The notes under the pieces were generated by a model, which saw only the letters and a list, made by a program, of their open reading frames with translations, was not told where the DNA came from and did no database searches. From the NCBI RefSeq assembly GCF_001997345.1, contig NZ_CP019606.1:744001-808000 (forward strand): 64,000 nt of DNA. The letters run 5' to 3'. Made by a program: the position numbers and the translations under genes. Origin of the DNA: Tessaracoccus aquimaris. GTDB taxonomy: Bacteria; Actinomycetota; Actinomycetes; Propionibacteriales; Propionibacteriaceae. Below are positions 37,970 through 62,450 of this stretch, one piece after another; within the stretch, counting starts at the first letter, position 1, and every line of letters starts with the position of its first letter.

Positions 37970-39064
37970 TCAGCGCACCACGCGCGCCGAGCCTCCCGAG
38001 GCGACCCGGAACACCTCCTTGGCGGTTGCCATCGAGGTGTCGCCGGGCGTCGTCATGGCCAGCGCGCCGTGCGCTGCGCCGTACTCGACGCTGGTGGCGA
38101 GGCTCTCCCCGGTGAGCTGCCCGTAGATCAGCCCCGAGGCGAACGAGTCGCCGCCGCCGACCCGGTCGAGGATCTCGAGCCTGCGTTCGCTCGCCTGCAC
38201 GAGCCCCTCGTCGCGGGACCAGGCGAGCGCCGACCAGTCGTTGTCTGAGGCGCTGTGCACGGCCCGCAGGGTCGTGCCGATCACCTGGAAGTTGGGGTAG
38301 GTGGCGGCGGCCTGCTCGATCATCGCGCGGAAGCTGTCGATGGGCAGTTCGGTCAGGTCATCGTCGACGCCCTCGATCTCGAAGCCGAGGGAGGCGCTGA
38401 AGTCCTCCTCGTTGCCGATCATCACGTCGACGAGGCTCGCGAGGTCGCGGTTGACCTCCTGCGCCTTCGCCTGACCGCCGAGCGACTGCCACAGCGATGG
38501 GCGGTAGTTCAGGTCGTAGGAGATCACGGTGCCGTGCCGCTTGGCCGCGGCCATCACGGCACGCGCCGTCTCGGCGGACTGCTCCGAAAGGGCCGCGTAG
38601 ATCCCGCCGGTGTGCAGCCATCGCACGCCGAGCTCGCCGAAGAGCCGGTCGAGGGCCAGGTCATCGGGGGAGAGTTGGGAGATGGCCGTGTGGCCGCGGT
38701 CGGAGACGCCGATCGCGGAGCGCACCCCGAAGCCCCGCTCGGTGAAGTTGAGGCCGTTGCGGGCGGCGCGTCCGATGCCGTCGAAGTCGACCCAGTGGAT
38801 CAGCGAGGCGTCGACCCCGCCCGCAAGCACGAAGTCCTCGATGAGCCGGCCTACCTCGTTGTCGACCAGGGCGGTGAGGACGGCGGTGCGAAGGCCGAAG
38901 ACCTTTCGTAGGCCTCGCACCACGTTGTACTCGCCGCCCCCCTCCCACGCCTGGAAGGTGCGGGCGGTGCGGGTCCGCAGTTCGCCGGGGTCGAGGCGCA
39001 GCATGATCTCGCCGAGGCTGACGGCGTCGTAGCGGCACTCTTCTGCTGGTCGGATGGTGAGCAT
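37970..39064 (-). CDS. kdgK: 2-keto-3-deoxygluconate kinase (PfkB family)
   Basis: 364 residues. PfkB signatures: GGGEYNVVRGL at the N-terminus, YDLNYRPSLW in the centre, and the catalytic Asp306 in VGGGDSFASGL. The sugar-acid kinases share the DLNYRPSLW pattern, which supports KDG as the substrate. It would make 2-keto-3-deoxy-6-phosphogluconate, the substrate of the aldolase encoded 15 bases upstream. It is the last gene of the six-gene operon. Alternative: another 2-keto-3-deoxy sugar acid. Confidence 0.83.
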   Translation of the reverse strand: MLTIRPAEECRYDAVSLGEIMLRLDPGELRTRTARTFQAWEGGGEYNVVRGLRKVFGLRTAVLTALVDNEVGRLIEDFVLAGGVDASLIHWVDFDGIGRAARNGLNFTERGFGVRSAIGVSDRGHTAISQLSPDDLALDRLFGELGVRWLHTGGIYAALSEQSAETARAVMAAAKRHGTVISYDLNYRPSLWQSLGGQAKAQEVNRDLASLVDVMIGNEEDFSASLGFEIEGVDDDLTELPIDSFRAMIEQAAATYPNFQVIGTTLRAVHSASDNDWSALAWSRDEGLVQASERRLEILDRVGGGDSFASGLIYGQLTGESLATSVEYGAAHGALAMTTPGDTSMATAKEVFRVASGGSARVVR

Positions 39065-39079
39065 GGTGTCCTCCTGGGC

Positions 39080-39718
39080 TCAGTTGTTGGCGGCCTGCGC
39101 GACGGCGGTCGCGCAAAGCTGGGTGATGGTGTCGAAGTCGCCTGCGTCCACTGCCGAGGCAGGGACCATCCAGGAGCCCCCTACGGCGGCCACGGACGGC
39201 ACGGCCAGGAACTCGGCGAGATTGCCGGGGGAGACGCCACCGGTGGGCACGAAGCTGACGCCCCCGAAGACCGAGCCGAGCGCCTTGAGCGCGGCGACGC
39301 CCCCGTAGATGCCTGCGGGGAAGAACTTCAGCAGGCCCAGTCCCATGTCGAGGGCCGCCATGATCTCGGTCGGCGTGACCGCGCCCGGGATGACGGGCAC
39401 GCCTCGCTCCCGGGCGGCGGCGACCACGTCGCGGCTCAGGCCGGGGGACACGAGGAAGCGTGCGCCTGCGTCCATGGCGGCGGTCGCCTGGGCGACGTTG
39501 AGCACGGTGCCTGCGCCGACGAGCAGGTCGGCGCGGGTGGACATCGCGGCGATCGAGGCGAGGGCGGCCGGGGTGCGGAGCGTGACCTCGGCGACCGGCA
39601 GGTCCCCGGCGATCAGCGCGTCCGCGAGCGGAAGCGCGTTGGAGTCGTCGTTGATCACGACGACCGGGACGATGCGCCGGGCGAATGCCTCGGCGAGGAT
39701 CGGGTCGGGAGTTGGCAT
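39080..39718 (-). CDS. eda: bifunctional KDPG/KHG aldolase
   Basis: 212 residues, class I aldolase. The catalytic Glu44 lies in AEVTLRTPAA and the Schiff-base Lys131 in LLKFFPAG. GGVSFVPTGGVSPGN is the phosphate-binding loop. It splits 2-keto-3-deoxy-6-phosphogluconate into pyruvate and glyceraldehyde-3-phosphate. It lies between the M20 gene (51-base gap) and kdgK (15-base gap). Confidence 0.9.
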   Translation of the reverse strand: MPTPDPILAEAFARRIVPVVVINDDSNALPLADALIAGDLPVAEVTLRTPAALASIAAMSTRADLLVGAGTVLNVAQATAAMDAGARFLVSPGLSRDVVAAARERGVPVIPGAVTPTEIMAALDMGLGLLKFFPAGIYGGVAALKALGSVFGGVSFVPTGGVSPGNLAEFLAVPSVAAVGGSWMVPASAVDAGDFDTITQLCATAVAQAANN

Positions 39719-39769
39719 GGCGGAACAGAGCCTTCCTGGTTGGTGACGGCGTTGCGGTGGGGATTCTGG

Positions 39770-40897
39770 TCAGAGGTCGCGCAGGAACTCGGCGAGCCGG
39801 TCCGTCGCCCAGCTCAGTTGCGCGACGGGGATGTGCTCCTGGTCCGTGTGGGCCACGGCGATGCTGCCGGGGCCCCACACGATGCAGCCGATGCCTGCCG
39901 CCGCGATCTTGCTCGCGTCGCTTCCCCAGCCGGCCCCGACGGGATCAGCGGGATGGGGCGGGCCGGTCAGGGCGGAGGTGCTTCTCCGGACCCAGGTTGA
40001 GGCCGGGTCGGTGTCGAGCGCGATGTCGAGCGTGAACGGCTCGTCGATCGTGACGCCGGGGCAGTCGCGGGAGAGGATGGCACGCATGGACCCGAGGGCC
40101 TCCTCCGGCGTCTCGCCCGGCGCGAGTCGGCGGTCGACGACCGCGGCGCAGTGAGCCGGGATGACGTTGTCGCCCTCGCCGCCCTCGATCCTGGTGACCG
40201 CGAGCGATCCCCGGCTCAGGAGAGGGTTGGTCGACGCGTTGAGGATCGCGTCCGCGTTGCGGTGCAGCGCGAGGATCGCCTCGGAGACCGCCACGACGGC
40301 GTTGGGCTGGAGATGTCCGAGGCTGCTGTGGCCGCCACGCGTCGAGGCATGGATCCGGCAGCGGATGACGCCCATGTGGGCCGCGACGACCCTCGTGTCG
40401 GTCGGCTCTCCCACGATCGCCCCGACGTAGTCCTCGCCGCCGAGGGAGCCGTCCGCGAGGAGGCCTGTGACGCCCTTGTAATGGTGCTCCTCGTCGATGA
40501 CCGCCGCGAGGCGGATGGTCACGGGCGGGGGAGAGACCCGGAACTCCGAGATGGCCGCCATGAAGCAGGCGAGCGGGCCCTTGGCGTCGCAGGCACCGCG
40601 CCCGCGCACCGTCGCCTCGTCGACCGTCACCTCGGGGGTCACGACCCCGACGGGCAGTTCGACGGTGTCGAGGTGGGTCTCCAGCAGGACCGCCCTGCCG
40701 GCGTCGGCGCCCGGGACGGTCACCACGACGTTGTGGCGCCCGTCGATCACCTCGTGCAGTTCGGCCGGGAAGCCCTGCGCACGTGCCCAGTCGCGGACGA
40801 ACTCGGCGAGCGGCGTCTCTGCCGGCTCTGCGCGGTCTCGCGGGTTGACGCTCGGGATCAGGATGAGTTGTCGCAGCAGGTCAACGGGGTCTGTCAT
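39770..40897 (-). CDS. M20-family amidohydrolase (ArgE/DapE-like), candidate N-acetyl sugar-acid deacetylase
   Basis: 375 residues. Metal-binding and catalytic residues are complete: His75 and Asp77 in LLETHLDTV, Asp104 in GRGACDAKG, the Glu pair 136-137 in IDEEHH, Glu in IVGEPTD and His in the VAHTDQEHI segment. It removes acyl groups from an N-acyl amino compound. It overlaps the regulator gene by four bases (ATGA) and is encoded with a PLP ammonia-lyase-like enzyme, aldolase and KDG kinase, so N-acetyl-D-glucosaminate is a reasonable candidate substrate. An N-acyl amino acid is the alternative. The arginine genes are absent here. Confidence 0.85.
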   Translation of the reverse strand: MTDPVDLLRQLILIPSVNPRDRAEPAETPLAEFVRDWARAQGFPAELHEVIDGRHNVVVTVPGADAGRAVLLETHLDTVELPVGVVTPEVTVDEATVRGRGACDAKGPLACFMAAISEFRVSPPPVTIRLAAVIDEEHHYKGVTGLLADGSLGGEDYVGAIVGEPTDTRVVAAHMGVIRCRIHASTRGGHSSLGHLQPNAVVAVSEAILALHRNADAILNASTNPLLSRGSLAVTRIEGGEGDNVIPAHCAAVVDRRLAPGETPEEALGSMRAILSRDCPGVTIDEPFTLDIALDTDPASTWVRRSTSALTGPPHPADPVGAGWGSDASKIAAAGIGCIVWGPGSIAVAHTDQEHIPVAQLSWATDRLAEFLRDL

Positions 40898-41613
40898 GTT
40901 CGTCTCACTTCGTCGAGATAGCCGTAGACGGTGACCTTTGAGACAGCGAGTCGGGCGGCCACCACGTCCACCGATCGCTTGATGTCGAAGGCGCCGCGCT
41001 GCTCGAGGAGCGCGATCACCCGGATGCGCTCCGACTTGGACAGCAGTGCGGGCGGCTTGCCGACCGACTCGAGGGCCTCCTCCACCATGGATTCAAGGAT
41101 CGAGCCGATGTCGGGGGTGAGGAGTTCCTGGGGCCTGCTCGGGTCCTCCTGCGTCATCACCGACTGCAGGTTGGCCATCGCGAACTGCAGCGGTGAGAGG
41201 TCATGGTTGATGCAGAGCGCGGCGATGATGCTGCCCGCCTCGTTGCGGAAGTAGAGCGACGATGACCGCATCTCGCGACCGTCCTGGGTCAGTGAGCTGT
41301 AGCCGAAGGCGTCGTGGTTGTTCTGCTCGTCACGCATGGCCGCGAAGCCCAACCTGGTGGAGGGGCTGCCGACGGTGCGTCCGGTCAGCTTGCCGTTGTA
41401 GATCGCGTAGACGCTGTGGTTCAGGTCGCGGCTGGTGAGGTCGTGCAGGACCATCTCGCATTGTCGTCCCACGGCTTCGCAGACGGCTTGCATGATCGGA
41501 AGCGCGACACTCGCCACGTCCTCGATCGTCTCGAACCGCGGCTCGGAGGGCGAGAGCCGGGTCTGCAACCCGCTGCTCGGCGCTGCGCCACTTGCCTGCA
41601 TCTCTTTCACCAT
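40894..41613 (-). CDS. YheO/DauR-type transcriptional regulator (PAS-like plus helix-turn-helix)
   Basis: 239 residues (ATG at 41613; a GTG one codon earlier is also possible). The N-terminal YheO-like PAS domain (about 30-150) has NHSVYAIYNGKLTGRTVGSP and SSSLYFRNEAGSIIAALCINHD. The C-terminal helix-turn-helix of the DauR type (about 195-239) has FDIKRSVDVVAARLAVSKVTVYGYL. DauR represses D-amino acid (D-arginine) catabolism, and other members regulate nearby catabolic genes. Encoded inside the operon, it is likely its local regulator, acting at the AT-rich divergent region 43269-43434. Confidence 0.85.
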   Translation of the reverse strand: MVKEMQASGAAPSSGLQTRLSPSEPRFETIEDVASVALPIMQAVCEAVGRQCEMVLHDLTSRDLNHSVYAIYNGKLTGRTVGSPSTRLGFAAMRDEQNNHDAFGYSSLTQDGREMRSSSLYFRNEAGSIIAALCINHDLSPLQFAMANLQSVMTQEDPSRPQELLTPDIGSILESMVEEALESVGKPPALLSKSERIRVIALLEQRGAFDIKRSVDVVAARLAVSKVTVYGYLDEVRRT

Positions 41614-41643
41614 CACGGTTTCCCTCTCTCACTGTCCGCCCGA

Positions 41644-42876
41644 TCAGAACTCGGTCCGATAGGCGTCGACCAGGTGGCCGCCGTCCCAGTCATCGACAAC
41701 AGGGATCCAGCGCCACTTGTCCATGATTGTGCATGGATGCGAGAGGCCAAGCTCAATGAGGTCCCCGACACGCAGGTCGGCGACACCGCGCAGGAAGGTG
41801 TGGTGGTCGTTCGTGGCGACGCTGACAAGCCCTTCGGCCAGGTCGCGCCACACCCCGTCGCGCTGGACACGCAGGGGAAGGGGAAGTCCCTCGTCGTAGG
41901 CGAACTCGCGCTTGCCTCCCTCGAGGATGAACAGGTCCGGCTCAGGGTGCGACTGCACGCGCGCATAGCCACGGGCCGCAGGGACCAGGCAGGCTCGGTG
42001 GTCAAGACCCGGGTCGACGCGGGGCGACAGCGGCGAGAGCCGTTCGTAGACGCCGTGATCGTGGACCAGGTATGCGCCCGAACGCAGCACCACCCGACGC
42101 CCGAGGCGGCCGAGGACGCTGGCGACCTCGTCGAAGTAGATGCTCCCGCCGACGCTCAGCACGCCCTCGACGCCGGTCTCCGCGGTGATCCAGTCGGACA
42201 ACTCGCCGAGCAGCGCGAGGTAGGCGCGGACCCGTTCGATGGACTCGCTCGTCCGGTCGTGGGCGAGCGCCCCCTCGTAGCCTGCGACGCCCGCGAGGTC
42301 GAGGACGGGGGACTCGGCGATCCTCAGCGCGAGCGACCTCGCCTCGTCGAGCGATCGCGTCCCGGTCCTGCCGCCCTCGGCGCCGACGTCGACCAGCACA
42401 TCGAGCGGGGCGCTTCCAGGCAGGGCGCCCGCCTCCAGCAGGTCGACGGTGGCCGGGGAGTCGGCCCACACGCAGAACCTGGTGTCCCCTCCGGAGAGGC
42501 TCGACACGACCCGAACCTGATCAACGCTGGCGAGTTCGTTGGCCAGTTGGACCCGGGCGATGCCCGCCCGGGCGGCCGCGACGGCCTGCTGGAGGGTCGC
42601 TACGGTGAGCCCGATCGCGCCCTTGCGCAACTGCAGGTCCCACATCGGCGTCGACATGGTGGTCTTCGCGTGCGGTTGCAGCGACAGCCCCCGCGCCTCG
42701 ACCCAGTCGGCCATCACCGCCGCGTTGTGTTCGAGGTCGTCGCGGCTGAGCGCGATGAACGGGGTGAGGAGGTCGCCTATCCCGAGGCCAAGGTCGACGA
42801 CCTCGGATGCGGTGGCTCCGACGGCGGAGACGGGGAATCCCTTCTCGACGCCGAGGCGGGGCTCGGCGCCGCTCAC
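41644..42876 (-). CDS. fold-type III PLP enzyme, D-serine dehydratase/D-threonine aldolase-like
   Basis: 410 residues. The alanine-racemase-like barrel begins with TPFIALSRDDLEHN. The PLP Lys71 is in LQPHAKTTMS. The C-terminal beta domain has the metal pair His380 and Cys382 (LSHPCTIMDKW), diagnostic of the zinc- or manganese-dependent D-serine dehydratase and D-threonine aldolase group. These catalyse beta-elimination or retro-aldol cleavage of D-beta-hydroxy amino acids. D-glucosaminate is such a compound, and D-glucosaminate dehydratase activity has been reported in this family. It overlaps ridA by four bases (GTGA). With KdgK and Eda encoded in the same operon, release of 2-keto-3-deoxygluconate and ammonia is the best guess. 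Confidence 0.82.
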   Translation of the reverse strand: MSGAEPRLGVEKGFPVSAVGATASEVVDLGLGIGDLLTPFIALSRDDLEHNAAVMADWVEARGLSLQPHAKTTMSTPMWDLQLRKGAIGLTVATLQQAVAAARAGIARVQLANELASVDQVRVVSSLSGGDTRFCVWADSPATVDLLEAGALPGSAPLDVLVDVGAEGGRTGTRSLDEARSLALRIAESPVLDLAGVAGYEGALAHDRTSESIERVRAYLALLGELSDWITAETGVEGVLSVGGSIYFDEVASVLGRLGRRVVLRSGAYLVHDHGVYERLSPLSPRVDPGLDHRACLVPAARGYARVQSHPEPDLFILEGGKREFAYDEGLPLPLRVQRDGVWRDLAEGLVSVATNDHHTFLRGVADLRVGDLIELGLSHPCTIMDKWRWIPVVDDWDGGHLVDAYRTEF

Positions 42877-43268
42877 CCCCGCCCCTGCGGGACCGCGGCG
42901 ACCACGTCGATCTCGACGAGGATGTTCGCAAGGGTCGAGCCGACGGTCGTGCGGGCCGGGTACGGGGCGGTGAAGAACTCGCTGTACGCCTCGTTGTAGG
43001 CCGCGAAGTCCCGGTCCAGGTCCTGGAGGTGGACGGTCGTCTTGAGGACGTGTTCGAAGGAGAGCCCTGCCTCGGCGAGGGCGGCACCGACATTGCGGAG
43101 CACCTGACGGGTCTGCTCGGCGACCCCGTCCGGAACCTGTCCGGTGGCCGGGTCCTGCGGGCCGAAGCCGGCGGTGAACAGCAGGCCGTTGGCGCTGACG
43201 GCGTGGCTGTAGGGGCCGGCCGGCCGCGGTGCATCGGCCGACATGTAGGCCTGCTTGTCGAGGGTCAT
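42873..43268 (-). CDS. ridA: RidA family reactive intermediate deaminase
   Basis: 131 residues, YjgF/RidA fold. RPAGPYSHAV at the N-terminus and PARTTVGSTL with the conserved catalytic Arg identify the hydrolytic RidA branch. RidA hydrolyses enamine or imine intermediates released by PLP dehydratases. It is the first gene of the operon and overlaps the PLP dehydratase-like gene, which fits that role exactly. AGGAGG precedes the ATG. Confidence 0.9.
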   Translation of the reverse strand: MTLDKQAYMSADAPRPAGPYSHAVSANGLLFTAGFGPQDPATGQVPDGVAEQTRQVLRNVGAALAEAGLSFEHVLKTTVHLQDLDRDFAAYNEAYSEFFTAPYPARTTVGSTLANILVEIDVVAAVPQGRG

Positions 43269-43434
43269 TGGTTACCTCCTGGTGGGCGAGGGGCTGTCTT
43301 GACCGTCTCGCATCTGGAAAATATTCTATTGGTATAGATGTACTTTCTGTTAAGGTAGCAGAAGTTTCTATGGGTTGTCACGCATGGCGACCCACTCAGA
43401 GGGCGACGAAGCCCCCATCCGAGAGGTACACGAA
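43269..43434. promoter_or_regulatory. AT-rich divergent control region between ridA operon and ABC transporter
   Basis: The stretch 43316-43375 is strikingly AT-rich for this genome. It has a plus-strand promoter, TTGGTA (43329-43334), a 16-base spacer, TAAGGT (43351-43356). It also has minus-strand -10-like TAGAAT (43328-43323) and an upstream TTAACA. The inverted repeat TCTAT-TGGT-ATAGA (43325-43338) overlaps both and is a candidate binding site for the YheO-type regulator. Confidence 0.55.
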
Positions 43435-44718
43435 ATGTCGATAAGAAGGGTTCTTGCCGCTGCGCTGACAGGCGCTGTCGCGGTAGGCCTTGCCGCATGC
43501 TCACCGTCCGCGGAGGGGGAGGGCGGGAACAAGAGCGTCAACGTGGTGCTCGCGAACCACCCGTGGACGGATCTGATGAAGGAGAAGATCCCCGAGTTCG
43601 AACAGCAGAGCGGGATCAAGGTCAACCTGACCACCTACACCGAGGACCAGCTGTCGCAGCAGCTCAACGTGAAGCTGAACGCGGGCGCCTCCGACGTCGA
43701 CGTGATGATGATCCGGCCACTGCAGGAGGCGCGCCTCTTCGACCGCAACAAGTGGCTGGCGGACCTGGCCGAGAAGGCGCAGGGTGACGCCGAGTGGGAC
43801 TGGAGCGACTTCCAGCCCGGCCCCCAGGAGTCGGTCACCATCGACGGGCGCATCGTTGCGGTGCCGCTCTCGACCGAGCGGGAGGTGCTCTACTACCGCA
43901 AGGACCTGCTCGATCAGGCAGGGATCGCCATACCCACCACGCTCGAGGAGCTCGAGGCCGCCGCGAAGCAGATCCACGAGTCGAGCAACGGCGAGGTGTA
44001 CGGCTTCGTTGCGCGCGGCCAACTCTCCGCGGCCGTGACGCAGTTCTCGAGCTTCCTGTACTCCTCCGGCGCGGACTGGGTCAACGAGGACGGCACCTCC
44101 GGCATCGCAACCCCCGAGGCCATCGCGGCGTACGAGCTCTACGGCCGACTGCTGCGCGAGTACGGCCCCCCTGGCGTGACCAACATGTCCTGGCCTGAGG
44201 CGATGGGCGTGTTCACCCAGGGACGAGCCGCCTTCTACGCCGAGGCGGACTCGCTCTACACCAACGCGACCGACCCCGCGAAGTCGAAGGTCGTCGACTC
44301 GCTGGGGTTCGCACAGTTCCCCGCGGGCTCGGCAGGCTCACGGCCGACCAACGTGCCCGCCTGGGCCGTCGCGGTTCCCTCCGCGTCGAAGAACGCGGAC
44401 AACGCCTGGGAGTTCATCAAGTGGGCGACCGACAAGGACAACACCCGCTACGTGCAGGAGAACGGCGTGATCGGCTCCCGCGCGTCCGCCTGGGATGCCG
44501 CGCCGAACTCGGTCATCCCGGCGGACCTCGCCGAGGTGCAGGCCGCCAGCGCCAAGGTCGGCGTCGGCTACAGCCACCCCGTGGTGCTCAACGTCGCCCG
44601 CTCGCGGGAGATCGTCGGTGAGCCCATCATCACCGCGATCGAGGGCGGCGACGTGAAGGCGTCGGCCGAGAAGGCCAGCGCCCTCTTCGACGAGTTCCTC
44701 GCCGCAGGCGGCGAGTGA
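43435..44718 (+). CDS. CUT1-type ABC transporter sugar-binding lipoprotein
   Basis: 427 residues from ATG at 43435, chosen because a lipoprotein signal peptide follows (SIRRVLAAALTGAVAVGLAAC, lipobox LAAC). It is a cluster 1 extracellular solute-binding protein (MalE/UgpB-like): VTIDGRIVAVPLSTEREVLYYRKDLL and the C-terminal WAVAVPSASKNADNAWEFIKW. It delivers a sugar-like solute to the two permeases downstream. An in-frame ATG at 43384 and others upstream lack a signal sequence directly after them. Confidence 0.88.
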   Translation: MSIRRVLAAALTGAVAVGLAACSPSAEGEGGNKSVNVVLANHPWTDLMKEKIPEFEQQSGIKVNLTTYTEDQLSQQLNVKLNAGASDVDVMMIRPLQEARLFDRNKWLADLAEKAQGDAEWDWSDFQPGPQESVTIDGRIVAVPLSTEREVLYYRKDLLDQAGIAIPTTLEELEAAAKQIHESSNGEVYGFVARGQLSAAVTQFSSFLYSSGADWVNEDGTSGIATPEAIAAYELYGRLLREYGPPGVTNMSWPEAMGVFTQGRAAFYAEADSLYTNATDPAKSKVVDSLGFAQFPAGSAGSRPTNVPAWAVAVPSASKNADNAWEFIKWATDKDNTRYVQENGVIGSRASAWDAAPNSVIPADLAEVQAASAKVGVGYSHPVVLNVARSREIVGEPIITAIEGGDVKASAEKASALFDEFLAAGGE

Positions 44719-44776
44719 CGGGCAGGTCGGCCGGCGAGCACGAGCGCGCCGGCCGACCGACACGAAAGGGTTCCCG

Positions 44777-45667
44777 ATGACCTCAACCGCCTTGGAGGCG
44801 TGGACCAACCGCAACCGCAAGTGGATCTTCGCCGGCCCGGCGCTGATCTATATCGCGCTCCTGCTGGTCGGCCCGCTCGCCTACACCGCCTTTCTCAGCC
44901 TCACCGACGCGCGGGGCTCCATCCAGGCCGACTTCAGTTTCGTCGGCATCCAGAACTACCTGACGGCGCTGACCGCCGACCCACGCTTCTGGCCGGCGGC
45001 CGGTCGCACCCTGATCTTCACGGCCGGGGCGCTGATCGCCGAGATGATCCTCGGCATGGTGGTCGCCCTCGCCCTGCACGCGCGCCTCAAGACCGGCGCG
45101 TTCGTGCGCATCACGTTCCTGCTTCCGCTGGTCGCCACACCGGTGGCGGTCGCGATGATGTGGCTCCTGATCTTCGAGCCGACCATCGGGTTCGCCAACG
45201 AGGCGCTCGGCTGGCTCGGCATCCCGGCGCAGGGGTGGATCTCCGAGCCTGCGACCGCGCTGCCGACGCTGATGCTCGTCGACGTGTGGCAGTGGACGCC
45301 CATGGTGATCCTCATCCTGTCCGCCGGGTTGGCGAACCTCCCGCAGGACCAGCAGGAGGCCGCCATGGTCGACGGCGCGTCCGGGTGGAACCGCTTCTGG
45401 CACATCACCTTGCCGACGATCTGGCCGACGGTGATGGCTGCGGTGCTGCTGCGCGGCATCGACGCGATGAAGACCTTCGACCTGCTGTACGTCACCAAGG
45501 GTGCGGGCGGCGGGTCGCGGCATGAGGCGGAGACGCTCAACGTCTACGCCTACGCGCAGAACTTCTCGTACAACGACTACGGCGCGGCCTCGGCGATCTC
45601 GATCCTGTTCTTCGCCTTCATCGCCATCGTGATCGGCATTCTGAACGGATTGGGGAACAAGCGATGA
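44777..45667 (+). CDS. CUT1 ABC transporter permease (MalF/UgpA-like)
   Basis: 296 residues with six membrane segments. The ATPase-contact EAA loop is EAAMVDGASGWNRFWHITLP. It pairs with the next gene, whose start overlaps its stop by four bases. It starts 58 bases after the binding protein. Confidence 0.9.
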   Translation: MTSTALEAWTNRNRKWIFAGPALIYIALLLVGPLAYTAFLSLTDARGSIQADFSFVGIQNYLTALTADPRFWPAAGRTLIFTAGALIAEMILGMVVALALHARLKTGAFVRITFLLPLVATPVAVAMMWLLIFEPTIGFANEALGWLGIPAQGWISEPATALPTLMLVDVWQWTPMVILILSAGLANLPQDQQEAAMVDGASGWNRFWHITLPTIWPTVMAAVLLRGIDAMKTFDLLYVTKGAGGGSRHEAETLNVYAYAQNFSYNDYGAASAISILFFAFIAIVIGILNGLGNKR

Positions 45668-46497
45668 AGAAGTCAGAACCGGCCGAGGGTCGGGGCACGT
45701 CGTCAAAGCTCGCGGGTGTCGTGGTGGTGGTGTACGGACTCGTCTGCCTGCTGCCGCTGCTGTGGATGATCGCCTCGTCGTTCAAGACGAGCATCGACAT
45801 CAACGACCCGTCAAAGGCGCTGGTCTTCACCCCGACGCTCGAGAACTACGTCAAGGTGCTCGCGCAGGAGAACTTCCTGTTCTTCATGTTCAACAGCGCC
45901 GTCGTCGCGCTGGTGTCGACAGGTCTCGCGCTCCTGGTCGGCGTTCCCGCCGCGTACGCGATCGCCCGGTTCAAGATGCGCCACACGTCGTCGCTGATCC
46001 TGTTCTCCAGGGTCGTGCCGCACATCACGCTGCTGGTCCCGTGGTACTACATCTTCGCGAAACTCGGCCTGGTGGGGACCTACCCGTCGCTGATCCTCTC
46101 CCACATGTTCATCGCAGTGCCGCTGGTGGTGTGGATCATGATCGGCATCTTCGAGGTGATCCCGGTGGAACTGGAGGAGGCCGCCCAGGTCGACGGGCTG
46201 ACCCCCATCAGGGCCTTCCTGAAGGTCATCCTTCCCCTCGGAATGCCCGGGATCGCCACAGCGTCGGTGCTGTCGCTGATCTTCTCGTGGAACAACTTCG
46301 TGTTCGCGCTGGTGCTCTCCGGCATGGAGACCCGCACGCTCCCCGTGGCGATCTTCAACTTCGTGGGCTACGCGTCGATCGACTGGGGCGCGCTGATGGC
46401 GGCCTGCGTCACCATCACGCTTCCCATGCTGGTGCTCGCGATGGTCGGCAACCGCTACGTGGTGGCCGGTCTGACGGCAGGCGCGGTCAAGGGCTGA
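45664..46497 (+). CDS. CUT1 ABC transporter permease (MalG/UgpE-like)
   Basis: 277 residues with six membrane segments. EAA loop EEAAQVDGLTPIRAFLKVILP. No ATP-binding subunit is encoded in the cluster, as is usual for actinobacterial CUT1 systems that share an MsiK/UgpC-type ATPase encoded elsewhere. It ends the transporter operon and converges with the next gene. Confidence 0.9.
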   Translation: MKKSEPAEGRGTSSKLAGVVVVVYGLVCLLPLLWMIASSFKTSIDINDPSKALVFTPTLENYVKVLAQENFLFFMFNSAVVALVSTGLALLVGVPAAYAIARFKMRHTSSLILFSRVVPHITLLVPWYYIFAKLGLVGTYPSLILSHMFIAVPLVVWIMIGIFEVIPVELEEAAQVDGLTPIRAFLKVILPLGMPGIATASVLSLIFSWNNFVFALVLSGMETRTLPVAIFNFVGYASIDWGALMAACVTITLPMLVLAMVGNRYVVAGLTAGAVKG

Positions 46498-46500
46498 GGC

Positions 46501-46941
46501 TCAACCCCGATCCCGGATCACGTCCGGGAGGGCGCGGCGGGCGGCCGACAAGGCCAACGCCGCGCCCGCCAGCAGCGCGATCCAGGCCGCGACGACCTGC
46601 CAGCCCCACGAGGAGATCACGAACGACCAGCCGACCAGGATCACGACCCCGGCCAGCGCCCACCAGGCCGGGACCCTGCTCGGCTTGCGCCAGTACACCC
46701 CGAGCCACGCGCCGATCGCGGAGATGGCCGCGCACAGCGCGGCAAGGGGAGCGTGGAAGGCGCCGTACCCGAACGGCATCGGAGAGAACCAACTGTGGAA
46801 GGTGACGGGGCCGGCCGCGCCTGTGTTCGGGTCGCCCATCCACTCCATCGGATAGGTCGGCGCGATCGTCCACACCACGACGGCGGTCAAAACCACCGCC
46901 GAAGCCACCTGCCAACCCAACCTGCTGCGTGCCACGCTCAT
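46501..46941 (-). CDS. hypothetical multi-pass membrane protein
   Basis: 146 residues with four predicted membrane segments (AVVLTAVVVWTIAPTY, LAALCAAISAIGAWLGVYW, WWALAGVVILVGWSFVI, VVAAWIALLAGAALALSA). I do not recognise a family. The loop between segments 1 and 2 is Pro/Gly/Phe-rich. The ATG at 46941 is preferred over a GTG six codons earlier; neither has a clear ribosome-binding site. Confidence 0.65.
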   Translation of the reverse strand: MSVARSRLGWQVASAVVLTAVVVWTIAPTYPMEWMGDPNTGAAGPVTFHSWFSPMPFGYGAFHAPLAALCAAISAIGAWLGVYWRKPSRVPAWWALAGVVILVGWSFVISSWGWQVVAAWIALLAGAALALSAARRALPDVIRDRG

Positions 46942-46980
46942 GCGCAGATGATGGCCCACGGGACGCCGGTCGTCAACGGG

Positions 46981-47910
46981 TCAGGCGAACCAGCCTGGCC
47001 AGATCCCCAGCCTGCCGCCGACGGCCTGCACCGGGCCGACCTGCGTCAGCATCGCCTGTCGCCAAGCGTCCTCGTCGGAGGAGGCGACCAGCCGCGCGTA
47101 ACCGCCGAGCAGGTTTGTCTCGAGCGCCGCCCACCCGGAGCGGATCTCGTCCGGAGTGGACATCTCGTTGGGAAGAGTGAAGGCGGCGGGCTCGTCTGGC
47201 ACCTCTCCGGTGATCGCCCCCCGCAGGTCGTTGCGCAGGCCCTTCACGATGGCAAGCCGGGCGCTGCCGAGGGCGTGCAGCGGATCCTTGGAGCCGAGCC
47301 TGCCCAGCCCGACGCCCAACCCGTAGATCAGCGCCCAGGCGTGCCCGAGCGCGATGGGAAGCGAGGCCTCGAGCGTGGCGGGCTGCAGTCGCACCGGCGT
47401 CGGGCCGTCGATGACGGGCTCGAGCGACTGGTTGGCGAGCGCGGTCGCGCCCGCGGCGGCGGAGGCGTACATCAGGCGCACGTCACCCTCCGGCGCGGAC
47501 TTGGCGGCAGCGCCGAGGGCCTTGACGGCGGCGGCAACCTGCTCGGCGACCGCCGCGACACCCGCCTCGACGGAGGCAGGGGGCGCGGGAGTGGGGCTCT
47601 CAACCGCGAACGGCTCCTGATCCTCGGGTCCGAACGGATCGGGCAGCGCGAGCACCGCAAGTTGAGCGTCGCACTGCGCCAGGGCCGCCGTCGCCCAGGG
47701 GCCGGCAGCGAACCCGGGCGCCTTCGAGAGCGCCTCGACCGAGCCCCGCAACGCGGCGACGGCGACCTGCGCGGCGCTCGCCTCCGGCGCCTGACTCGGC
47801 GGCGGGGGAGATGGCGCCAAGGCGGGAGTACCGGAGATCACGGGGCTCGCCGCGCAGCCGCTCACGCCCAGGACAAGGGCGGCGAGGGCGGCGCGTCGGG
47901 TCAATGGCAT
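46981..47910 (-). CDS. DUF4439-type ferritin-like lipoprotein
   Basis: 309 residues. A lipoprotein signal peptide (LTRRAALAALVLGVSGCAAS, with a Cys after LGVSG) also shows an RR pair. A Pro/Ser linker and then a helical region follow (about 40-150). The C-terminal four-helix DUF4439 domain (about 175-300) has LGHAWALIYGLGVG and RNDLRGAI. DUF4439 lies next to rimP in many actinobacteria, divergent as here. The function is unknown and no iron ligands are obvious. Confidence 0.72.
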   Translation of the reverse strand: MPLTRRAALAALVLGVSGCAASPVISGTPALAPSPPPPSQAPEASAAQVAVAALRGSVEALSKAPGFAAGPWATAALAQCDAQLAVLALPDPFGPEDQEPFAVESPTPAPPASVEAGVAAVAEQVAAAVKALGAAAKSAPEGDVRLMYASAAAGATALANQSLEPVIDGPTPVRLQPATLEASLPIALGHAWALIYGLGVGLGRLGSKDPLHALGSARLAIVKGLRNDLRGAITGEVPDEPAAFTLPNEMSTPDEIRSGWAALETNLLGGYARLVASSDEDAWRQAMLTQVGPVQAVGGRLGIWPGWFA

Positions 47911-58667: not shown

Positions 58668-58795
58668 TAAATCGGCGAGGTGGTTGCCAGTCGTCGGTTT
58701 TACGCGAAGAATCCCTAATGTTCCCGGTCACATTTGGGCGATCGGGGGTCGCTAGGCGGGGCAGTGAGGTTCCGCCGGACTGCAAAGGAGCAATC

Positions 58796-59815
58796 ATGAC
58801 CAACCTCAACCGGCGCACCTTCCTCGGCGGACTCGCCGCGAGCGCCATCGTCCTGCCGCTGGCCGCCTGCGGCAACGACACGGACCCGGGAACCGCGGGC
58901 AGCCCGGCCGCCACCGGAGGCGGTGGCGGCGACAAGGCCGGCCCCATCGTGCTCGGCTTCTCCCAGGTCGGCGCCGAGTCGGGTTGGCGCGCGGCCAACA
59001 CCAAGTCCATCCAGGAGACCCTCACCGCCGAGAACGGCTTCGACTTGAAGTTCTCCGACGCCCAGCAGAAGCAGGAGAACCAGATCCAGGCGATCCGCTC
59101 CTACATCTCGCAGGGCGTCGATGTGATCGCCTTCTCGCCCGTCGTCGAGACCGGCTGGGACGCAGTGCTTCAGGAGGCGAAGGAGGCCAAGATCCCCGTC
59201 ATCCTGACCGACCGCGCGGTCGACTCGCAGGACGACAGCCTGTACGTCTCCTTCATCGGCTCGGACTTCGTCCTCGAGGGTGACACCGCAGGCAAGTGGG
59301 CGGTCGAGCAGTACAAGGGCCAGGGCCTCAAGATCGTCGAACTGCAGGGCACCACCGGAGCGGCTCCCGCGATCGACCGCAAGGAGGGCTTCGAGAAGGC
59401 GATCGCGGGCAGCGACCTGACGATCATCGACTCGCAGACGGGCAACTTCACCCGCACCGAGGGCAAGACCGTGATGGAGGGCTTCCTGCAGAAGCACGGC
59501 GACCAGATCGGCATGGTGTTCGCGCACAACGACGACATGGGGCTCGGCGCCATCGAGGCCATCGAGGCGGCGGGCAAGAAGCCAGGCGTCGACATCAAGA
59601 TCATCACGATCGACGCAGTCAAGGACGGCATGCAGGCGCTCGCCGACGGCAAGATCAACTACATCGTCGAGTGCAACCCGCTGCTCGGCCCCGATCTGGC
59701 CGACATCGCCAAGAAGGTTCTCGCGGGCGAGAGCGTCCAGAAGCGCATCGTCGTCAAGGACGAGGCCTTCGACCAGGAGCAGGCAAAGGCCGCCCTCCCG
59801 GACCGCAAGTACTGA
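58796..59815 (+). CDS. ytfQ: sugar ABC transporter substrate-binding lipoprotein (YtfQ-like)
   Basis: 339 residues. The N-terminus combines a Tat-like NRRTFLGG with a lipobox LAAC. It is a periplasmic-binding-protein family of the RbsB/YtfQ type: DAQQKQENQIQAIRSYISQGVDVIAFSPVVETGWD, and AHNDDMGLGAIEAI. The gene order (binding protein, double ATPase, two permeases) matches ytfQRT-yjfF, the galactofuranose transporter of E. coli. The sugar here is unproven. AAGGAG precedes the ATG. Confidence 0.85.
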   Translation: MTNLNRRTFLGGLAASAIVLPLAACGNDTDPGTAGSPAATGGGGGDKAGPIVLGFSQVGAESGWRAANTKSIQETLTAENGFDLKFSDAQQKQENQIQAIRSYISQGVDVIAFSPVVETGWDAVLQEAKEAKIPVILTDRAVDSQDDSLYVSFIGSDFVLEGDTAGKWAVEQYKGQGLKIVELQGTTGAAPAIDRKEGFEKAIAGSDLTIIDSQTGNFTRTEGKTVMEGFLQKHGDQIGMVFAHNDDMGLGAIEAIEAAGKKPGVDIKIITIDAVKDGMQALADGKINYIVECNPLLGPDLADIAKKVLAGESVQKRIVVKDEAFDQEQAKAALPDRKY

Positions 59816-59847
59816 GCAGGCAGCGGCGGAAGGAAGTGGGGTAGCCC

Positions 59848-61386
59848 ATGGTGGCGGAGGATCTCGCCCGGGTGGTGAGCGATGAGCCGGTGATCTCGAT
59901 GACCGGCATCTCCATCGAGTTCCCGGGAGTCAAGGCGCTCGAGGAGGTCGACTTTCGACTCTATCCGGGCGAGGTCCACGCCCTCATGGGCGAGAACGGG
60001 GCGGGCAAGTCGACGCTGATCAAGGCGTTGACCGGCATCTACGGCATCGACGCGGGGACCATCGTCGTCGAGGGGAGGGCGGTCAGCTTCTCAAGCCCGC
60101 TGCAGGCGCAGGCCGCGGGCATCAGCACGGTGTACCAGGAGGTCAACCTGTGCGAGAACCTGAGCGTCGCGGAGAACGTGATGCTCGGGCAGGAGGTGCG
60201 GCGCGGCCCGTCTATCGACTGGCGCGCCACCCGCCGCGAGGCGCAGCGCCACCTGAGCGACATGGGCCTCGACATCGACGCCAACTCCTCGCTCGGCTCG
60301 CACTCCCTCGCGGTGCAGCAGTTGGTCGCGATCTGCAGGGCAGCGTCATTCGACTGTCGGATCCTGGTGCTCGATGAGCCGACCTCGTCGCTCGACTCGG
60401 GCGAGGTCGAACAGTTGTTCCGCGTGATGCGCAGCCTGCGCGACCAAGGCGTCGCGATCCTGTTCGTGTCGCACTTCATCGACCAGGTCTTCGAGATCTC
60501 CGACCGGGTCACCGTGCTGCGCAACGGCAGGTTGATCGCGGAGCATCGAACAGCCGACCTCGACCAGGAGCACCTCATCTCGGAGATGATCGGTCGTTCG
60601 CTGGCGGCGCTCGGCGACCTGCGCGTCGATGCCCGCGACGACGACGCCGAGCCATACGTGCGGGCCATCGGCCTCGGCAGGGCGGGCTCGGTCGAGCCGT
60701 TCGACCTGGACGTCTACTCCGGGGAGGTGGTCGGCCTCGCTGGGCTGCTCGGCTCCGGTCGCACCGAACTGGCTCGCCTGCTCGCCGGGATCGACACCAC
60801 CACCGCGGGAACCACCGCGGTCGAGGGAAAGGCGGCGAGGCTCGGCAACCCCCGCGCGGCCCTCGACAGGAAGATCGCCTACTCCTCGGAGGACCGCAAG
60901 GGCGAGGGCGTCATCGGCGACCTGACGGTGCGCGAGAACATCATCCTCGGCCTGCAGGCCTCGCGCGGCTGGCTCAGGAAACTGCCGAAGGGCACCGTCG
61001 ACGCGGTCGTCGCGAAGTACATCGAGGCGCTCAACATCATGCCCCCCAACCCGAACGCCCGGATCAGCAACCTCTCCGGCGGCAACCAGCAGAAGGTGTT
61101 GCTGGCCCGCTGGCTCGCGATGCAGCCTAAGCTGCTGCTGCTGGACGAGCCGACGCGAGGCATCGACGTCGGCGCGAAGGCAGAGATCCAGAAGACCATC
61201 GCCGAGCTTGCGCGAGACGGCATGGCGGTCGTCTTCATCTCGGCGGAGCTCGAAGAGGTGCTCCGCCTCAGCAACCGCATCGCCGTCATGCGTGACCGGC
61301 GCAAGACAGGCGAACTCGACAACGACGGCAACCTGGAAGTGAGCGACATCGTGTCCTTCATCGCACAAGGGGGGAAGGCCTCATGA
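59848..61386 (+). CDS. ytfR: sugar ABC transporter ATP-binding protein, two ATPase domains (YtfR-like)
   Basis: 512 residues. The first ATPase domain has Walker A GENGAGKSTLIKAL and Walker B LVLDEPTSSLD. The second has the degenerate Walker A-like GLLGSGRTELARL, signature LSGGNQQKVLLARW and Walker B LLLDEPTRGID. This layout is that of RbsA/XylG/YtfR. It overlaps the first permease by four bases. Confidence 0.9.
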   Translation: MVAEDLARVVSDEPVISMTGISIEFPGVKALEEVDFRLYPGEVHALMGENGAGKSTLIKALTGIYGIDAGTIVVEGRAVSFSSPLQAQAAGISTVYQEVNLCENLSVAENVMLGQEVRRGPSIDWRATRREAQRHLSDMGLDIDANSSLGSHSLAVQQLVAICRAASFDCRILVLDEPTSSLDSGEVEQLFRVMRSLRDQGVAILFVSHFIDQVFEISDRVTVLRNGRLIAEHRTADLDQEHLISEMIGRSLAALGDLRVDARDDDAEPYVRAIGLGRAGSVEPFDLDVYSGEVVGLAGLLGSGRTELARLLAGIDTTTAGTTAVEGKAARLGNPRAALDRKIAYSSEDRKGEGVIGDLTVRENIILGLQASRGWLRKLPKGTVDAVVAKYIEALNIMPPNPNARISNLSGGNQQKVLLARWLAMQPKLLLLDEPTRGIDVGAKAEIQKTIAELARDGMAVVFISAELEEVLRLSNRIAVMRDRRKTGELDNDGNLEVSDIVSFIAQGGKAS

Positions 61387-62450
61387 GCGAACGCTACGGC
61401 CACGACAGGCGCGTCGGGCTCGGGAAGAGGATCACCTCCAGCAACCTGTTCTGGCCCCTCGTGGCGCTGCTTGCGCTGTTCGTCGCCAACACGATCGCCA
61501 GCCCCAACTTCCTCAAGATCACCTGGCTCGACGGCCACCTGTTCGGCTCGCTGATCAACCTGATGCGCAGTTCCGCGCCGCTGATGCTTGTCGCGCTCGG
61601 CATGACGCTGGTGATCGCGACCCGCGGCATCGACCTGTCGGTCGGGGCGGTGCTTGCGATCTCCGGAGCCGTCGCGCTCTCCTACATCGCCGGCGCACCC
61701 GACCCCGCGTCCCCCGCGACGGTCGCCGTCGCGGTGCTGATCGCGCTTGCGCTCTCGGCGGTCCTCGGCCTGCTCAACGGCCTCCTCGTGGCGGTGCTCG
61801 GCATCCAACCCATCATCGCGACCCTGATCCTGATGACGGCGGGCCGCGGCATCGCCATGCTGATCACCGGTGGTCTGATCACCACCGTCAACAGCGCCCC
61901 CTACAAGTGGCTCGGCTCCGGCTGGCTGCTCGGGCTGCCTGTAGCGGGCTGGATCGCGGTGGTCGTGTTCGTCGTCCTGCTGCTGCTGACCCGCAGGGGC
62001 GCGCTCGGCATGCTCATCGAGGCGGTCGGCATCAACCCCGACGCGGCCCGCATCGCTGGCGTGTGGTCGAGGCTCATCATCTGGATGGTCTACGTCCTGT
62101 CCGGCCTGTTCGCGGGCATGGCGGGCATCCTCAGCTCGGCGGACGTGATGGCCGCCGACGCCAACAACGCGGGCATGATGATCGAGATGGACGCCATCCT
62201 GGCGGTCGTCATCGGCGGCACCGCACTCTCGGGAGGCAAGTTCTCCCTGAGCGGCACGTTCGTCGGCGTCCTGGTGATCTCCACCCTGACGCTCACCGTC
62301 ACGATGCTCGGCATCTCACCGCTCGTCACCCCGCTGTTCAAGGCCATCATCGTGCTGATCGTGATGCTGCTGCAGTCGCCGCGGGCCCGAACCACATTCG
62401 AGGCGTGGAGCAGACGCACCGCCTTCAGGAAGAAGGAGGCGGTGGCATGA
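61383..62450 (+). CDS. ytfT: sugar ABC transporter permease (YtfT-like)
   Basis: 355 residues with eight to ten membrane segments. Family motif GMTLVIATRGIDLSVGAVLAISG. Pairs with the next permease as a heterodimer. ATG overlaps the ATPase stop; its own stop overlaps the next start (ATGA). Confidence 0.88.
   Translation: MSERYGHDRRVGLGKRITSSNLFWPLVALLALFVANTIASPNFLKITWLDGHLFGSLINLMRSSAPLMLVALGMTLVIATRGIDLSVGAVLAISGAVALSYIAGAPDPASPATVAVAVLIALALSAVLGLLNGLLVAVLGIQPIIATLILMTAGRGIAMLITGGLITTVNSAPYKWLGSGWLLGLPVAGWIAVVVFVVLLLLTRRGALGMLIEAVGINPDAARIAGVWSRLIIWMVYVLSGLFAGMAGILSSADVMAADANNAGMMIEMDAILAVVIGGTALSGGKFSLSGTFVGVLVISTLTLTVTMLGISPLVTPLFKAIIVLIVMLLQSPRARTTFEAWSRRTAFRKKEAVA

Follow-up and report, generated by a model that had tools for sequence, protein, structure and literature searches.

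The stretch of Tessaracoccus aquimaris DNA analysed here (64,000 nucleotides, positions 744,001 to 808,000 of NZ_CP019606.1; henceforth the window) belongs to one contig of 3.93 Mb and contains, flanked by proS and rimP, a cluster of nine genes that is a candidate for the uptake and catabolism of an N-acetylated amino sugar acid. An earlier note, made from the letters alone, had placed a six-gene minus-strand operon and a divergent CUT1 transporter here; all nine open reading frames are present where it put them, with matching families. The minus strand encodes RidA, a fold-III pyridoxal phosphate (PLP) enzyme, a YheO/DauR-type regulator, an M20 amidohydrolase, Eda and KdgK, and the plus strand encodes a CUT1 solute-binding protein and two permeases. 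The minus-strand genes are packed as tightly as the note had described, with gaps of 15 bp (kdgK-eda), 51 bp (eda-M20) and 27 bp (yheO-PLP) and 4-bp overlaps between the M20 gene and yheO and between the PLP gene and ridA. There are no terminator-like sites within this minus-strand run, whose genes may be co-transcribed; kdgK and eda, in the same run as the other four, close the predicted operon.

Products encoded by the cluster

The transporter consists of a solute-binding lipoprotein (P0007, positions 43375 to 44718, plus strand; SBP_bac_1, PF01547) and two MalFG-type permeases (P0008, 44777 to 45667, and P0009, 45664 to 46497, both plus strand; BPD_transp_1, PF00528), the combination that places it in the CUT1 class. 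No ATPase gene is present among the nine, a search that covered the cluster alone. The TTG start of P0007 is probably wrong, since a database copy (P0250) from the same contig has 427 residues, which corresponds to the ATG at 43435.

Two enzymes of the minus strand would carry out the first chemical steps. The M20 amidohydrolase (P0003, 39770 to 40897), a proposed N-acetyl-aldonate deacetylase, contains the M20 domain (PF01546) and its dimerisation domain (PF07687), and retains H75, D77, D104, E136/E137, E164 and H350; it passes no NCBIfam cut-off among the 25 matches listed. The fold-III PLP enzyme (P0005, 41644 to 42876), a proposed 2-amino-aldonate dehydratase/deaminase, has the features of the D-serine dehydratase/D-threonine aldolase group: an Ala-racemase-type barrel (Ala_racemase_N, PF01168), a D-ser_dehydrat domain (PF14031), a PLP lysine (K71, within a PHAKT motif), and the metal pair His380/Cys382 that the earlier note had picked out. 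Its structure model has a predicted local distance difference test score of 93.9, and its best solved neighbours are 3gwq, 6qkb, D-threonine aldolases and a D-serine dehydratase.

The remaining minus-strand enzymes are RidA (P0006, 42873 to 43268; PF01042), an enamine/imine deaminase that scores over the TIGR00004 cut-off and has R106; KdgK (P0001, 37970 to 39064), a PfkB-family protein (PF00294) with the motif GGGDSF; and Eda (P0002, 39080 to 39718; PF01081), which has the motif KFFPA and is over the cut-offs of NF004325 and TIGR01182 for aldolases of 2-keto-3-deoxy-6-phosphogluconate (KDPG) and 2-keto-4-hydroxyglutarate (KHG). KdgK passes no NCBIfam equivalog cut-off; its closest solved chain, 2afb (E 7e-45), is named "2-keto-3-deoxygluconate kinase". 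The M20 residues listed above, the GGGDSF and KFFPA motifs and R106 of RidA are presumably the catalytic or metal-binding residues of their families.

The regulator (P0004, 40894 to 41616, minus strand) joins a YheO PAS domain (PF08348) to an HTH_22 domain (PF13309). In the divergent intergenic stretch, a consensus scan alone gives one match to a sigma-70-like promoter ahead of the transporter operon (43299 to 43327, plus strand; 0.4 expected), followed at 43345 to 43366 of the plus strand by a 22-bp operator-like motif, TTCYGTTAANNTNNNAGAAGTT.

Transporter relatives and a unit that recurs in a second family

The transporter gives an indication of what kind of compound may be used. In a tree of binding proteins (39 rows, including 29 of 120 listed homologues; locus L054 was dropped because it yielded no binding protein), P0007 lies in a clade (100/100) with copies from Georgenia and from the family of genome G690, which is presumably Ruaniaceae. 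A search of 197 genomes of the class, the window's own included, found four close matches besides the window (1e-100; 54-57% identity). All four of these loci contain a galactonate dehydratase over the cut-off of NF010624, and some contain ManD over its cut-off (L081 and L084), a gene resembling a kinase of 2-keto-3-deoxygluconate (KDG; L081 and L082), or an Eda-like gene (L081 and L083). By its neighbours, the transporter clade goes with C6 aldonates. Among solved binding proteins, 4rya (named for sorbitol) and 5iai come nearest to P0007, at 26% identity; together, these relatives suggest that the substrate is an acyclic C6 acid or polyol and not an amino acid.

Much of the cluster recurs in Ruaniaceae. 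Four of the 24 genomes in that family encode an M20 protein 47-49% identical to that of the window, and in all four (L065, L072, L073 and L074) the gene stands in a unit of binding protein, two permeases, M20 and fold-III PLP enzyme, with a divergent yheO; ridA follows the PLP gene in three, and the fourth contig stops at the PLP gene. The transporter is orthologous to that of the window, with 63-67% identity across its three proteins (P0008, 65-66%; P0009, 64-67%), and a relative of P0004 (47-53%) is found in each unit. The operator-like motif is also shared: it lies between the divergent genes, without a mismatch, in the window and in all four units. Of the 137 loci compared, 131 have no exact match, and the two further matches (L001 and L076) are copies of the window itself. 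With three mismatches allowed, 0.01 chance matches would be expected in the window, a figure that describes rarity only, as the pattern was derived from the same sites. A weak motif match (score 14.4) also lies at 11656 of L037, directly upstream of a YheO gene in a D-aminoacylase-type cluster; in shuffled sequence, 0-1 matches scored higher than 12.

The Ruaniaceae units differ from the window in several respects. Their PLP enzyme belongs to another clade, their RidA is merely 37-38% identical, their kdgK and eda are unlinked to the unit, and their regulator gene is divergent rather than inside the operon. In a genome of another family (G581), CUT1 genes (23-32% identical to those of the window), a fold-III PLP gene and an M20 gene (43%) lie within about 7 kb; this PLP protein is more distant than those of Ruaniaceae (a 52-residue tblastn match, outside the tree described below). 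The simplest reading of these sequences is that a sugar transporter and an M20 hydrolase have been combined with a different fold-III enzyme in different lineages. The G581 locus (L066, 5948-15749) may be a richer variant of the cluster, with CUT1 genes, the fold-III PLP gene, a GFO/IDH oxidoreductase, the M20 gene, a fold-II (PALP) PLP enzyme and an epimerase adjoining one another.

Few genomes carry this M20 gene. Apart from the window copy, it was found in at least 1 of 292 genomes of the order (1e-40) and at least 3 of 393 of the class (1e-45), which are lower bounds, since only the top five or six candidates per genome were scored; a scan of genome contigs with the M20 protein gave one distant match (29%). 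In a tree of 59 rows (including 49 of 120 listed homologues), the window copy groups with P0130, P0131 and P0132-P0134 (99/100), and the Ruaniaceae proteins form a separate group. P0130, a protein of 375 residues from a 5,007-bp contig, is 98% identical to the window's M20 enzyme, so close relatives exist in environmental data.

The recurrence bears on one alternative, namely that the transporter, the amino-acid genes and the kdgK-eda pair happen to be neighbours in this genome alone and serve no joint pathway. The PLP gene is indeed missing from 37 other genomes of the genus, and the cluster is set between proS and rimP, but the transporter-M20-PLP-yheO part, together with the motif, is found again in another family, and a chance neighbourhood is considered very improbable.

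Proposed pathway and competing explanations

A pathway that these parts call to mind has been described in Pseudoalteromonas prydzensis ACAM 620. In that work (Jiang 2022, PMC9537276), the ong pathway leads from N-acetyl-D-glucosaminate (GlcNAc1A) through D-glucosaminate (GlcN1A) and KDG to KDG-6-P. OngB deacetylates GlcNAc1A, the fold-III PLP enzyme OngC yields KDG and ammonia, and OngD (a RidA protein) and KdgK are required for growth, as found by knock-outs and enzyme assays (PMC9537276).

The chemistry proposed for the window is that of this pathway. The CUT1 transporter would import an N-acetylated 2-amino-2-deoxy-aldonate, most likely GlcNAc1A, from which the M20 enzyme would strip the acetyl group. 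The fold-III PLP enzyme would then eliminate water and ammonia from the 2-amino-aldonate to give KDG, with RidA hydrolysing the enamine/imine; KdgK would phosphorylate KDG, and Eda would cleave the resulting KDPG to pyruvate and glyceraldehyde 3-phosphate. The YheO/DauR regulator would act on both divergent operons via the site at 43345, its pairing with this site and the direction of control being part of the proposal. The analysis establishes which genes are present and in what order, their families and active-site residues, and the recurrence of the unit with its shared motif; catabolism of an N-acetyl-2-amino-aldonate, probably GlcNAc1A, is judged the likely function of the cluster; the transporter clade and the conserved unit add support to the proposed chemistry. 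The earlier note had suggested this route. Its type of chemistry is proven for GlcNAc1A in P. prydzensis (PMC9537276), and the substrate and acyl group at this locus are predictions. The note had also held that clear activity on D-serine or D-threonine, with none on glucosaminate, would speak against the route; activity on these amino acids cannot discriminate, because OngC deaminates both (PMC9537276).

Several lines of evidence weigh against this assignment, and the first concerns the PLP enzyme. In a tree of 60 rows (including 39 of 120 listed homologues), P0005 pairs with P0011 (100/99) within a large actinobacterial group, with the Ruaniaceae enzymes as a distant clade; the branches are long and the placement is unsure. 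P0005 itself is on a long branch outside the OngC clade; no OngC structure was among the solved chains compared with it. Two observations count in favour of the assignment. P0005 shares 31-35% identity with the PLP proteins of the ong-type clusters of P. shioyasakiensis and K. pneumoniae and with a Vibrio copy whose record has an unannotated context, and P0011 and the M20 protein P0134, both tree partners of window proteins and both from 209,073-bp contigs, probably sit on one contig.

The neighbours of PLP relatives also weigh against the assignment. The PLP gene has matches in 61 of 197 genomes of the window's family, its own included (E 1e-3; many are weak), and the 26 loci with the best matches among the 60 other genomes (stretches of 5-20 kb) contain a RidA relative in 16 cases, a YheO relative in 4, and an M20 gene in none. 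Relatives of both KdgK and Eda are found in one of the 26 alone (L032, genome G090), and of the five loci with profiled neighbours, four have D-aminoacylase-type genes and four have MFS genes. L034 and L037 have a set like that of L032 minus the aldolase and kinase, that is, a D-aminoacylase, an MFS transporter, RidA and YheO adjoining the PLP relative.

Such loci favour a different reading, in which the M20 enzyme deacylates N-acyl-D-amino acids of the D-serine or D-threonine type, the PLP enzyme deaminates the products to 2-oxo acids with the help of RidA, and kdgK-eda is a separate neighbouring module. The closest solved PLP relatives, named as a putative D-serine deaminase, D-threonine aldolases and a D-serine dehydratase, fit this reading, as does a PLP relative in Pantoea that adjoins an amino-acid ABC transporter. 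Regulators of the YheO/DauR type are known from D-amino-acid catabolism. However, the transporter is of the CUT1 type, and the four other loci examined in its clade are aldonate clusters; kdgK-eda lies 51 bp from the M20 gene in the same run; no Amidohydro_3 D-aminoacylase stands beside the PLP gene or elsewhere among the nine genes, an M20 enzyme being present instead; and two other actinobacterial clusters pair this PLP family with an aldolase and a PfkB kinase. Catabolism of N-acyl-D-amino acids, the main rival, is regarded as unlikely, with perhaps a chance in five.

In the first of these two clusters (L032), RidA, Amidohydro_3, PLP, aldolase, PfkB and MFS genes are accompanied by a divergent yheO. 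In the second, a plasmid record of Tsukamurella tyrosinosolvens (L110), genes for the PLP enzyme, a D-aminoacylase, an aldolase and a GntP permease are divergent from PfkB, IclR and RidA genes. Both resemble the window in their PLP relative (40-45% identity), RidA, KDPG-type aldolase and PfkB kinase, and G090 also in its YheO; both differ from it in having a D-aminoacylase-type deacylase and an MFS or GntP transporter, with an IclR regulator in Tsukamurella. Thus, at least three actinobacterial lineages (window, G090 and Tsukamurella) bring a PLP enzyme and RidA together with a deacylase and with both a kinase and an aldolase of the KDG type, in sets that differ in deacylase and transporter. 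A Microbacterium plasmid (sp. NIBRBAC000506063; L111, 5974-10227) has PfkB, PLP, amidohydrolase and Rid genes; the PfkB and PLP genes are split, which suggests a decayed or mis-sequenced cluster, and these split genes were left out of the tree. A single run on pRL10 of Rhizobium johnstonii 3841 (L109, 2398-10597), with a sugar ABC transporter, an amidohydrolase, a PLP relative, RidA and an aspartoacylase-like gene, is perhaps another variant with a different deacylase.

A second line of evidence against GlcNAc1A catabolism concerns kdgK and eda. In all four Ruaniaceae genomes with the unit, these genes (71-74% and 58-60% identical to those of the window) adjoin each other elsewhere, and the motif has no copy in the three such regions inspected (L130-L132); across the kdgK loci L121-L132, nothing scores above 12 save one place in L122 far from kdgK. 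The earlier note had held that finding the first four genes widely without kdgK-eda would refute the route, and this came partly true: the units have yheO, M20 and PLP (and ridA in 3 of 4) with no linked pair, and the pair lies elsewhere in each genome. As kdgK is present in 22 of 24 Ruaniaceae genomes regardless of the unit, its presence proves little, and its co-occurrence was dropped as support. Of 38 further genomes of the window's genus, 11 lack the PLP gene but have a full-length kdgK at least 70% identical, and eda is paired with kdgK in 9 of the 9 loci retrieved. The kdgK-eda pair may be a general KDG module and a mere neighbour of the rest. A second, distant eda-kdgK-like pair (36-38% and 30-36%) is found in the same genome (G000:C1:3573622-3574796, L133), and genes for CUT1-like permeases lie about 4 kb further along.

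The picture for the M20 family is mixed. In favour of the assignment, a fold-III PLP gene and CUT1 genes adjoin the M20 gene in 6 of the 9 places examined, the window included, with PLP enzymes of different clades. Three places have no fold-III PLP match: G244, where CUT1-like permeases lie about 4 kb away, and G481 and a second G740 copy (L075), which have none of the other cluster genes except a RidA relative in L075. Given these three, membership of the M20 group does not by itself imply the proposed pathway. Also against the assignment, the genome has no AA10 lytic polysaccharide monooxygenase (LPMO; 0 matches to PF03067) and one partial GH18 match, so that oxidised chitin would have to come from other organisms.

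The identity of the sugar acid is a separate matter. An alternative to GlcNAc1A is N-acetyl-D-galactosaminate or another acetamido-aldonate, degraded through 2-keto-3-deoxy-galactonate (KDGal) by a kinase and an aldolase. In its favour are the galactonate dehydratase beside all four sister transporters, the galactonate-type annotation of kinase and aldolase in the K. pneumoniae ong-type cluster, which counts against GlcNAc1A, and the fact that several NCBIfam kinase models compared with KdgK describe bifunctional KDG/KDGal kinases. Eda, on the other side, passes the KDPG/KHG models and falls below NF006600, the model for the 6-phosphogalactonate counterpart (105.9 bits, cut-off 207), and GlcNAc1A is a common compound owing to oxidised chitin (PMC9537276, PMC12017989). 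A galactosaminate-type or other such substrate is accordingly given low odds, below those of the N-acyl-D-amino acids.

Two further features of the window lie outside the cluster. Between it and rimP (46501-47910) are two minus-strand genes for proteins of 152 and 309 residues without a Pfam match, the longer with a lipoprotein-like start, and at 58718-62450 there is a ribose-type sugar ABC transporter (Peripla_BP_4, ABC_tran and BPD_transp_2).

Comparison with the ong pathway

The window cluster is not an ong cluster, as judged by deacetylase, transporter and regulator. The ong deacetylase, OngB, belongs to the metal-dependent amidohydrolases, has a (beta/alpha)8 barrel and is a sister of the D-aminoacylases (Wang et al. 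2025, PMC12017989), whereas the window has an M20 enzyme and no Amidohydro_3 protein among its nine genes. Likewise, a CUT1 ABC transporter stands in place of the SSS symporter OngIT, and a YheO/DauR protein in place of the RpiR-type OngR. OngB would share its reaction with P0003, and the M20 fold is unrelated to that of OngB. The ong clusters also contain a GH20 gene (OngA) and a TonB receptor, and the window cluster neither, the GH20 search being confined to its nine genes. Finally, the hosts of ong are proteobacteria and that of the window an actinobacterium. By gene content, ong-type clusters are also found on a P. shioyasakiensis megaplasmid, whose listed annotation lacks the SSS gene, and in a K. 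pneumoniae plasmid record.

The likenesses lie in the chemistry. Both systems have, by assay in ong and by prediction in the window, deacetylation and fold-III PLP deamination to KDG (P0005 being homologous to the OngC-type enzymes and outside their clade), along with a RidA protein (P0006 in the window), KdgK and, in some genera, a KDPG aldolase, with dedicated uptake and a regulator in one cluster; the Vibrio, Klebsiella and Serratia ong clusters add kdgA (PMC9537276). In the window, P0001 is nearest to a KDG kinase chain and P0002 is over its cut-off, their specificity being predicted.

Oxidised chitin arises wherever LPMOs act, and the catabolism paper, as far as its available text goes, lists Proteobacteria only, with complete ong sets in Gammaproteobacteria and one Betaproteobacterium (PMC9537276). 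No GlcNAc1A pathway in actinomycetes is described in the open-access literature among the matches listed; an Arthrobacter chitin paper (PMC13106269) has Jiang 2022 among its references, and its available part does not mention GlcNAc1A. A bolder proposal, held tentatively and at somewhat less than even odds, is that actinomycetes own a GlcNAc1A pathway that combines a CUT1 transporter of the aldonate type and a novel M20 carbohydrate de-N-acetylase with lineage-specific fold-III PLP recruits and a YheO/DauR site common to two lineages, convergent with proteobacterial ong and letting LPMO-less bacteria live on the oxidised chitin of others. If so, GlcNAc1A catabolism would extend to actinomycetes, acetamido-aldonate deacetylases would come in a second, unrelated form, the M20 enzymes, and the operator-like motif and the transporter clade would form a testable marker for finding more such clusters. 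The earlier note knew of no actinobacterial system with this gene set: the set of parts and the lineage are new, and the pathway as such is already published for ong (PMC9537276).

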